Shown one piece after another: positions 21,935 to 31,879 of a stretch of DNA of 64,000 bases. The notes under the pieces were generated by a model. That model ran no database searches, had not been told where the DNA came from, and was given only the letters and a program-made list of their open reading frames with translations. This stretch comes from Bacteroidota bacterium. GTDB lineage: Bacteria; Bacteroidota; Bacteroidia; Chitinophagales; Chitinophagaceae. Position 1 is the stretch's first letter, and the number at the start of each line of letters is the position of its first letter. A program made the translations under genes and the position numbers. The stretch covers positions 1 through 64,000 of the forward strand of contig JAGWUV010000010.1 of NCBI GenBank assembly GCA_028875875.1, in the 5' to 3' direction.

Positions 21935-22408
21935 TTATTCGTTTGGAGTACTTTCCGTTGGTGCGGCCGGAGTTGCTTCTGCAGCCGGAGCGCTCACTTC
22001 AGCTACTGTTACTTCTGGCATTACCACTGGTGCTTCAGCAACCGGAGCAGGTAGTTTTGCTTTCTTTTTGGGTGCTGCTTTCTTCACCGCTTTTTTGGGA
22101 GCCACCTTTTTAATAGCAGGCTTCTTGGCTGCGGGTTTTGCCACTACAGCTTTCTTAGCAACCTTTTTAGGTGCTGCTTTCTTCACCGCTTTTTTAGGTG
22201 CTGCTTTTTTAACAACCACTTTCTTGGCTACTTTTTTCGCAGCAGCTTTCTTCACTACTTTTTTAATTGCTTTTTTGGGTGCTGCTTTTTTCGCTGCTTT
22301 CTTGGCTGCTTTTTTAGGTGCTGCTTTTTTAACAGCCACTTTCTTAGCTACTTTTTTGGCAGGTGTTTTTTTCTTGGGTGCAGCTTTTTTTTTGCTTGCT
22401 TTGGCCAT
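21935..22408 (-). CDS. Lys/Ala/Pro-rich histone H1-like protein
   Basis: The 157-residue protein begins MAKASKKKAAPKKKTPAKK and consists, up to about residue 115, of imperfect KKAAPKKAVKK/VAKK repeats; about a third of it is Lys. The last 40 residues change to an Ala/Pro/Glu/Val-rich acidic tail. It resembles bacterial H1-like proteins (AlgP, Hc1-type) that bind DNA nonspecifically. The minus strand is chosen because it gives a proper start, stop and terminator; the 167-codon plus-strand frame opposite (21921-22424) encodes only Phe/Leu/Ala repeats complementary to the Lys codons. A role in nucleoid packing is inferred. Confidence 0.85.
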   Translation of the reverse strand: MAKASKKKAAPKKKTPAKKVAKKVAVKKAAPKKAAKKAAKKAAPKKAIKKVVKKAAAKKVAKKVVVKKAAPKKAVKKAAPKKVAKKAVVAKPAAKKPAIKKVAPKKAVKKAAPKKKAKLPAPVAEAPVVMPEVTVAEVSAPAAEATPAAPTESTPNE

Positions 22409-29578: not shown

Positions 29579-29926
29579 ATGAGTAAAAAAAATAAACCCG
29601 ACAGCCGGGGATTTGTATACAGTACCGATCCGAATTTCAGGTTTGAAGAAACAAATAATGCAGTGCAGGAAACATTGCCACCGGCACAACAAAAACTTCG
29701 TGTGTGGCTTGACAGTAAGCAAAGAGCCGGTAAAGTGGTTACGCTGATTACCGGGTTTGTAGGTACAGAAAATGACTTGCAGGAGTTGGGTAAAAAACTT
29801 AAAAATTATTGCGGTACAGGAGGCAGTGCCAAAGACAATGAGATGATTGTGCAGGGCGACCAACGTGACAAGGTGCTGCAGTGGTTACTGAAGAATGGTT
29901 ACAGTAATTCGAAGAAAGCAGGATGA
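29579..29926 (+). CDS. SUI1/YciH-type translation initiation factor
   Basis: The 115-residue protein has a basic N-terminal tail and a SUI1/eIF1-like domain from about residue 38: LRVWLDSKQRAGKVVTLITGF, then LGKKLKNYCGTGGSAKDNEMIVQGDQRDKVLQWLLKNGY. The GTGGSAKD loop and the QGDQ segment are characteristic. Bacterial homologues (YciH) influence start-codon choice in vitro; the in vivo role is unclear. It follows nadC by 18 bases. Confidence 0.9.
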   Translation: MSKKNKPDSRGFVYSTDPNFRFEETNNAVQETLPPAQQKLRVWLDSKQRAGKVVTLITGFVGTENDLQELGKKLKNYCGTGGSAKDNEMIVQGDQRDKVLQWLLKNGYSNSKKAG

Positions 29927-30052: not shown

Positions 30053-31879
30053 CTAATAATCCAGTTCCAGTTTCAGTTTATCTTTTAAATCTTTTAGTAA
30101 AGGATATTGTTCGGCTATACGTTCGAAGCGTTGGCGGCTATTGAGTGCTACTTGTTTGGGAGCTTCTTCTTTTTCGCCTTCTTCAACAAGAATGCTAAAG
30201 TGAATGCCCCTGTTATGAAATGCCTGCTGTATATGATCTGCCAGCATCAATTTTTCCTGTTCTATGAATTTCTGCTGCGTAAAGGCACTCACCGTTACAG
30301 TGAAATGCGTCTCGTTTTCTACATGCAGTTTTGCAATACGCATGGTACCAACAGTTGAAGGTTTGCCTCCTTGTTTTTCAAGCATAACAGTATACTCATT
30401 CCAGCATTTCAGTAGTTTCTCTTTGTTCAACTCCTCTGCATCAGGCACTACTTCAATTGAGTACTTGTCGCCATATTTTTCACGGAGCGTATCCAGTAAG
30501 TTTTTACGGGTACCCGGCGTAGGCATAGGTTTTACTGCCGCATTCGGTTTCGCAGAAGGTGTTGTAGGAACCGTAGTTGCAGTTGTTGCTGCTACAGTAG
30601 CGGGTTTTGCCTGAGCTGCGGGAGGTTGCTGCACTTTTTGGTCGATCATCAGTTTGGCAGCAGGTGGTGCAGCCAAACCGCTCGTTTTCACCTGTACAGA
30701 CGGAACGGGTTTGGTATGAATTGCTACAGGGCCGTCAATTCGTTTTTTTTTTACAACGCCATTATCCTGAACCGTGAGCTCTATGGCCTGTTGCAGGAAG
30801 TTGAGTTTGATGATGGTCAGTTCAACATGCAATCGTTTATTGCGGGCCATTTTGAACTGTATCTCTGCTTCATTTAAAATATTCAGGGCACTTACAAGAT
30901 AGGCTGTTTGCGTTTTAACAGCAGTACTTGTATATTTTTCCTGCATGCCTTCTACTACATCCAGTAAAGAAGCCGCTTTAGCATCTTTACAAACAAGCAG
31001 GTTGCGAATGAATTCGGCAAAACCATTTAGTACAAGATCACCTTCAAACCCTTTGCGATTGATCTCATCATACAATAACATGGCGCCTGCCATATCCTGT
31101 TTCAGTAAGCAATCGAGCAGTTTGAAGTAATAATCGTCATCCAGGATGTTTAAATGTTCCAGTGTATTCTGATAGGTTACTTCGCCATTGGTAAAACTCA
31201 CGATTTTATCAAGGATACTCAGTGCATCACGCATACAACCTTCACTCTTTTGAGCAATCACCTGTAAAGCCGCTTTATCTGCATTGATTTCTTCCTTATC
31301 AACGATTTCCTGCAAATGCTCCACTGTATCATTGGTAGTGATGCGTTTAAAATCGAAGATCTGGCAACGGGATAGGATGGTGGGTAATATTTTATGTTTT
31401 TCTGTTGTAGCCAAGATAAAGATGGCATAAGAAGGCGGCTCCTCCAGTGTTTTTAGGAATGCATTGAAGGCACTGGCACTGAGCATATGTACCTCATCCA
31501 CAATATATACTTTGTATTTTCCGGCCTGCGGTGCAAAGCGAACCTGTTCAACCAGTGAGCGGATATCATCTACCGAGTTATTACTGGCCGCATCAAGTTC
31601 ATGAATGTTGAGGGAGGCACCGTCATTAAAAGATCTGCAACTGTTGCATTGGTTACAGGCTTCTCCATCGGGTTGGAGGTTTTCACAGTTGATCGTTTTA
31701 GCCAAGATACGGGCACAGGTAGTTTTGCCCACGCCCCTTGGTCCGCAAAACAAAAAAGCATGCGCCAGCTGGTTGTTGCGAATGGCATTTTTGAGTGTAG
31801 TGGTAATGTGAGATTGCCCTACTACGGTATTAAAATCCTGTGGACGGTATTTTCTTGCTGAAACGATGAACTTATCCAT
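30053..31879 (-). CDS. dnaX: DNA polymerase III gamma/tau subunit
   Basis: The clamp-loader ATPase is 608 residues from the ATG at 31879, which begins the conserved MDKFIVSARKYRPQDF; an ATG at 31891 would add four. It shows the P-loop GPRGVGKTTCARI, a four-Cys zinc module (CENL...CNQCNSC), DEVHML and SRCQIFDF (sensor region). Domains I-III end near residue 370. An A10 tract follows at residues 376-379 (30743-30752), where slippage by one base either way would stop translation within about eight codons and give a gamma-like product. A Pro/Ala/Thr linker and a tau C-terminal domain make up the rest. Confidence 0.95.
   Translation of the reverse strand: MDKFIVSARKYRPQDFNTVVGQSHITTTLKNAIRNNQLAHAFLFCGPRGVGKTTCARILAKTINCENLQPDGEACNQCNSCRSFNDGASLNIHELDAASNNSVDDIRSLVEQVRFAPQAGKYKVYIVDEVHMLSASAFNAFLKTLEEPPSYAIFILATTEKHKILPTILSRCQIFDFKRITTNDTVEHLQEIVDKEEINADKAALQVIAQKSEGCMRDALSILDKIVSFTNGEVTYQNTLEHLNILDDDYYFKLLDCLLKQDMAGAMLLYDEINRKGFEGDLVLNGFAEFIRNLLVCKDAKAASLLDVVEGMQEKYTSTAVKTQTAYLVSALNILNEAEIQFKMARNKRLHVELTIIKLNFLQQAIELTVQDNGVVKKKRIDGPVAIHTKPVPSVQVKTSGLAAPPAAKLMIDQKVQQPPAAQAKPATVAATTATTVPTTPSAKPNAAVKPMPTPGTRKNLLDTLREKYGDKYSIEVVPDAEELNKEKLLKCWNEYTVMLEKQGGKPSTVGTMRIAKLHVENETHFTVTVSAFTQQKFIEQEKLMLADHIQQAFHNRGIHFSILVEEGEKEEAPKQVALNSRQRFERIAEQYPLLKDLKDKLKLELDY
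30743..30752 (-). other. A10 homopolymer tract in dnaX, possible slippage site
   Basis: On the minus strand the codons read GTA AAA AAA AAA CGA, a run of ten A. With nine A the frame reads KKNELTAL then TAG; with eleven A it reads KKKTN then TGA. Both give a product of about 380 residues ending right after the clamp-loader domains. The Thermus dnaX gene makes gamma by slippage on a similar A run. Confidence 0.5.

Follow-up and report, generated by a model that had tools for sequence, protein, structure and literature searches.

The window, as the whole stretch of 64,000 nucleotides analysed here is called, originates from a member of the Chitinophagaceae (Bacteroidota) and carries a dnaX gene on its minus strand (Table 1). 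The gene product was recognised by the NCBIfam model NF011531 (DNA polymerase III subunit gamma/tau) with 728.5 bits against a cut-off of 685, and by TIGR02397 with 455.5 bits as the sole match above cut-off in the entire assembly. Pfam placed the domains DNA_pol3_delta2 (residues 22-180), DNAX_ATPase_lid (186-232) and DNA_pol3_gamma3 (245-363) on DnaX. A plus-strand ORF of 115 aa (29579-29926) adjoins dnaX; we take its product to resemble bacterial SUI1/eIF1-like proteins.

Table 1 Features of the dnaX locus (positions in the window)
Feature	Position	Strand	Basis
dnaX coding sequence, 608 codons and stop (tau as the template-frame product)	30053..31879	-	NF011531, TIGR02397
Residues 1-363, clamp-loader domains I-III, common to tau and predicted gamma	30791..31879	-	Pfam
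A10 tract, putative slippage site (third base of V376 and K377-K379)	30743..30752	-	sequence, conservation
TGA stop of predicted gamma, one A added (381 aa)	30735..30737	-	in silico
TAG stop of predicted gamma, one A lost or two added (384/385 aa)	30724..30726	-	in silico
Linker and C-terminal part specific to tau (residues 380-608), missing from predicted gamma	30056..30742	-	in silico

Ten T on the plus strand (30743-30752) correspond to an A10 tract in the coding strand, read in the codons GTA AAA AAA AAA CGA as V376, K377-K379 and R380. The tract is located 13 codons beyond residue 363, where the Pfam match to domain III ends, and about 62% through the gene. In silico, the template with ten A encodes a protein of 608 aa and 68.0 kDa. 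The addition of one A gives a product of 381 aa (42.8 kDa) with the C-terminus ...VVKKKTN, the addition of two A a product of 385 aa, and the loss of one A a product of 384 aa (43.1 kDa); the latter two have the C-terminus ...NELTAL. Both other frames hence stop soon after the tract, as membership in the Thermus type of dnaX requires. An earlier note on this DNA had located the ten A at Lys377-379 directly after the clamp-loader domains and had expected products of about 380 residues and 42 kDa, ending within about eight codons; the codons and the Pfam boundary confirm the location, and the computed products agree with the expected sizes. The dnaX of the window is a single ORF and does not have the two-ORF layout, here termed reversed, that is described below for some relatives.

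Long A runs are rare in the 3.5 Mb assembly. Its k-mer counts were 728 for A8, 70 for A9 and 4 for A10; counted as runs, 658 comprised eight or more A, 66 nine or more and 3 ten or more. The two runs of this last class outside dnaX are under no open frame of at least 90 codons. An A9 on the minus strand of the window (22385-22393) is located in a 164-codon stop-to-stop frame reading MAKASKKKAAPKK. As evidence against a chance occurrence, the conservation of the tract is stronger than the rarity of such runs.

For comparison, 80 dnaX loci were collected from genome records (many Chitinophagaceae, mostly MAGs, and one Dysgonomonas) and 129 phylum loci from the best 148 of 245 matching genomes among 247 searched; 18 of these 148 best matches and about 97 more distant genomes fall outside the phylum set. 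Including the window, 207 of 210 loci were kept, the exceptions being L086 and L087, which duplicate L008 and L045, and L082, whose match does not reach the tract. Each of the 207 loci was represented by its longest run of A in the 80 codons that follow domain III; at L023 this run lies 58 codons past domain III and may be a different site. A family set was obtained by an even draw of 60 genomes regardless of the run. A dnaX was present in 58 of these, all of which entered the analysis; the family set overlaps with that of the phylum. The loci are related, and sets thinned to 80, 70 and 65% identity of the N-terminal domains were made as well.

Among the 207 phylum loci examined, the run was A10 in 109, A9 in 34, A11 in 13, A8 in 2, A7 in 5, A6 in 4 and shorter in 40, that is A9 to A11 in 156 and below A8 in 49. 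Tracts of A8 or longer have a constrained position, the middle 90% beginning 7 to 27 codons past the domain III reference point. Thinning to 80% identity left 89 loci, 54 of them with A9 or longer; the corresponding numbers were 23 of 42 at 70% and 20 of 34 at 65%. In the family, 55 of 58 genomes carried A9 or A10 (31 and 24, respectively), three were without A9 or longer, and tau was encoded in the template frame in all 58. Carriers of A10 include five Chitinophaga, Pollutibacter and Dysgonomonas, carriers of A9 Segetibacter, Hydrotalea, Ilyomonas, Terrimonas, Flavihumibacter, Limnovirga and Flavisolibacter; Ginsengibacter has A8. The tract thereby passed the conservation check proposed in the earlier note. 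On a FastTree tree of the 207 rows, its presence changes 15 times, gains and losses not being told apart. The 49 tract-less loci (e.g. L129, L131, L133, L140, L141, L148, L149 and L153-L171) were also characterised by a more GC-rich N-terminal part of dnaX (median 0.52 without versus 0.41 with the tract). In the MAG loci L054 and L069, two or three lysines are kept and the run is interrupted by AAG or AGA.

A conserved lysine cluster in genes that prefer AAA may yield such runs as a by-product, slippage then being noise without a role. Lysine codons outside the tract are indeed 3698 AAA and 1439 AAG, and KKK occurs near the site in 48 of the 58 family loci and KK in 9 more. The lysines alone yield a run of A9 or longer at a mean probability of about 0.4, a point against the slippage reading. 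Yet when residues and codon usage are taken into account, such runs would be expected within 40 codons of domain III in 22.1 of the 58 family loci, compared to 55 observed. This retention in relatives beyond the expectation from residues and codon usage is a further property of the Thermus type. Outside the tract, the tau-frame dnaX genes contain one A9 and 23 A8 runs in 72,000 codons. The loci differ in codon phase and in the residues found at the run (VKKKR, EKKN, KKKT and others). A control gene with an A9 in this genome (L230) was matched in 59 of the 60 family genomes, its own included; among its 29 closest relatives, the best 29 of 58 other matching genomes, an A9 near the site was found in none, an A8 in six and shorter runs in the rest. 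Another candidate control, L229, was not used, its relatives being confined to two other genomes of the 60. With the excess of closed frames and the 38 loci that encode tau solely in another frame, both presented below, these observations render an origin as by-product very improbable. The run is conserved at the nucleotide level.

After the tract, exactly one frame remained open for at least 100 codons in all 158 loci with A8 or longer. The open frame was the template frame in 120 loci, including the window, and another frame in 38. In 115 of the 118 tau-frame loci with A9 or longer, a stop within 12 codons closed the +1 nt frame; the -1 nt frame was closed in this way in 106 loci, and both frames were closed in 104. 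Synonymous shuffling predicted closure in 63, 67 and 42% of the cases, respectively, and the values for 20,647 sites elsewhere in these genes were 60, 57 and 36%. In the thinned sets, stops within 12 codons ended both frames in 37 of 43 tau-frame loci at 80% identity, in 11 of 16 at 70% and in 9 of 13 at 65%. The excess is weaker among distant representatives, with 11 of 16 at 70% versus the expected 42%.

In the 38 reversed loci the template frame stops 4 to 10 codons on, and tau continues in the +1 nt frame in 36 and in the -1 nt frame in two, L126 and the MAG locus L079. A stop ends the third frame within 12 codons in 35 of the 38 loci, and a limit of 13 codons raises this number to 37; in the thinned sets, closure within 13 codons was present in 10 of 11 (80%), 7 of 7 (70%) and 6 of 7 (65%) reversed loci. 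A tau profile built from 117 tau-frame C-termini matched the C-terminal ORFs of all 38 loci and none of their shuffled copies. Homopolymer errors in the assemblies would offer a trivial explanation, and reversed layouts would then be uninformative on recoding. L078 (A9) and L079 (A11) are MAG contigs in which the tau frame is broken exactly at the tract, by a real switch or by an assembly error. Against a general role of such errors, the reversed layout was present in 14 of 14 genomes of the genus g15, three of them single-contig, and the tau-frame loci, among them the window, are untouched by this explanation, which we regard as highly implausible. In g15, the median dN/dS (11 of 91 pairs passing the dS filter) was 0.127 for the C-terminal ORF, compared to 0.024 for the N-terminal part. 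Selection thus acts on the C-terminal half even though a stop in the template frame precedes it, and the simplest route to this half is a frame change at the tract. Independent initiation of the C-terminal ORF may be an alternative; the first ATG, GTG or TTG is located 16 to 152 codons into these ORFs.

The distribution of the two layouts was followed on trees of the N-terminal domains, calculated with FastTree (207 rows) and in the quick mode of IQ-TREE (158 rows). Both trees require at least 12 changes of layout, and the minimum is 10 on the IQ-TREE tree without the MAG loci L078 and L079. For shuffled labels, a mean of 34.2 and a minimum of 28 changes were obtained in 100 shuffles. The T10 on the plus strand might instead serve convergent transcripts, as the tail of a terminator or as another element acting at the level of DNA. 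The closed frames and the reversed layouts, however, concern coding and argue against such a function. Plus-strand ORFs between 28700 and 29926 do point towards dnaX, but a pattern scan detected no terminator-like stem at the T10, and we assign next to no probability to this function.

The dnaX gene of Escherichia coli forms gamma by a -1 ribosomal frameshift at A_AAA_AAG, with an upstream Shine-Dalgarno (SD) sequence and a strong downstream fold. The outcome is the same as predicted here, gamma and tau from one gene. A programmed -1 ribosomal frameshift on A_AAA_AAA, acting on a uniform mRNA as in E. coli, could accordingly be the source of gamma also in the window. The tract contains A_AAA_AAA in frame, an AGGA is located 12 nt upstream, and in 36 of the 38 reversed layouts tau is in the -1 frame (an additional nucleotide is needed), as a -1 ribosomal shift predicts. 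Furthermore, three short-run relatives have an in-frame A_AAA_AAG: L050 (identical to L322) and L068 with A8, and L308 with A7. In these loci, the sequence reads AAA AAA AAG or CAA AAA AAG and the -1 frame stops five codons on; they may represent a switch from polymerase to ribosomal slippage.

Four observations favour slippage of the polymerase over that of the ribosome. Firstly, a heptamer would suffice for the ribosome, yet the run lengths are 9 to 11 in the large majority of loci and drop sharply below nine, with just two A8 and five A7. Secondly, closure above expectation extends to the frame for which a -1 shift of the ribosome has no use, in 106 of the 118 tau-frame loci and, within 12 codons, in 35 of the 38 reversed loci. 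Thirdly, two reversed loci require the opposite direction. Finally, the helper elements appear weak. In the same 45-nt view, the downstream fold had -5.4 kcal/mol in the window and -19.1 kcal/mol in E. coli dnaX; across the 158 loci the median was about -5, and five loci were at -15 or below. A strong stem-loop just 3' of the tract is absent from the window, and an Rfam scan of 30400-31100 yielded three matches, all far below the cut-offs. SD-like motifs were present in 34 of 158 loci compared to 39.9 expected. Whereas E. coli combines A_AAA_AAG with an SD sequence and a strong fold, the window has an A10 with a weak fold and only the four bases AGGA upstream; the run is followed by C, and A_AAA_AAG in the tau frame is absent from its tract, which contains only A_AAA_AAA. 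Raw fold energies were used because z-scores cannot separate the E. coli element itself (about -0.5) from the background (mean -0.07 for tract loci, -0.29 for other sites), and z-scores were dropped as discriminator. Codon phase was likewise rejected as a test against the ribosome, every observed phase containing A_AAA_AAA. Taken together, we consider ribosomal frameshifting unlikely and infer that RNA polymerase is the slipping machine.

Programmed transcriptional slippage at the A10, yielding gamma and tau from one dnaX in the manner of Thermus, is by far the most probable reading in our judgement. RNA polymerase would add or drop A's on the A10 and thereby produce a mixture of dnaX mRNAs. 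Those with 10 (or 10 ± 3n) A's would be translated into full-length tau of 608 aa. The remaining mRNAs would shift the frame and stop about 2 to 6 codons past the tract, giving gamma-type proteins of 381 to 385 aa with little beyond the domains I-III. Bacterial RNA polymerases slip on A9 to A11, with the context influencing whether insertion or deletion occurs, as described in PMC5009743, PMC6260861 and PMC4256274. We infer that slippage occurs in this organism and that gamma would join the clamp loader. The loci without the tract, 49 of 207 in the phylum and three of 58 in the family, count against this reading. Confidence in slippage is trimmed slightly by the possible separate initiation of C-terminal ORFs and by the weaker frame-closure excess at 70% thinning. 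The interpretation in the earlier note, slippage towards a gamma-type product, appears well supported by the comparison with relatives, which revealed both the conservation of the run and the usual closure of the other frames soon after it.

In Thermus, gamma originates from slippage on an A9 in dnaX, as reported in PMC1088944 and PMC5009743. According to the same accounts, the gene of Thermus thermophilus resembles that of the window in being a single tau ORF with an A9/A10 after the clamp-loader domains and in having stops close behind in both other frames, so that a short gamma results. The position of the tract is different, about 62% of the gene in the window and about seven-eighths in Thermus (PMC1088944), and the earlier note had fairly spoken of a different sequence context. 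The gamma predicted for the window, moreover, would extend only a little past domain III, and the bacteria are different. The reversed layout has a precedent in the 17 two-ORF dnaX genes from 12 genera, nine with A10, described by Antonov et al. 2013 (PMC3711429), in which tau requires a frame change and transcriptional realignment was suggested. The 38 reversed loci share this two-ORF layout, in contrast to the single ORF of the window. Chloroherpeton and Chlorobium are named in the text of that article, and none of the 17 genes had been annotated as recoded (PMC3711429). The layout suggests that annotation pipelines would render reversed genes as a truncated dnaX and an orphan ORF. A comparable behaviour is described for tssM1 of Citrobacter rodentium and tssM3 of Yersinia pseudotuberculosis, in which an A run leads to two protein lengths by transcriptional slippage and relatives differ in which variant is the slipped product (PMC4256274). 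These genes are unrelated to dnaX, and such sites are few in tssM according to the authors (PMC4256274). Caulobacter likewise has two DnaX lengths, but its gamma is reported to arise by proteolysis of tau and not by recoding (PMC5009743).

Slippage towards a shorter product was described by Baranov et al. 2005 as hard to spot by comparison, because no new coding sequence appears (PMC1088944). The conservation of run length against codon usage, together with the reversed layouts, circumvents this difficulty. For the dnaX of these bacteria we lean towards a frame-indifferent gene, in which the reading frame would be spread by a long-standing A10 slippage tract, so that tau and gamma would be made whichever of them the template encodes. 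Such indifference would allow single-base insertions and deletions around the tract to be tolerated and the layout to be switched, on the trees some 10 to 12 or more times, while the tract is kept and the third frame closed. In the open-licence literature, to which the search was confined, we found no report that the tract in its single-ORF form is widespread among these bacteria and no report of repeated switching of the dnaX layout. The proposed slippage in dnaX is of the known Thermus type; its distribution here and the layout switching look unreported in that literature.

The repeated switching of the in-frame product provides evolutionary evidence for a frame change that is independent of RNA measurement. 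The place of gamma in the replicase is described as disputed even for E. coli (PMC5009743). In many relatives of the organism studied here the tract is under selection, and two lengths of DnaX probably matter there too.
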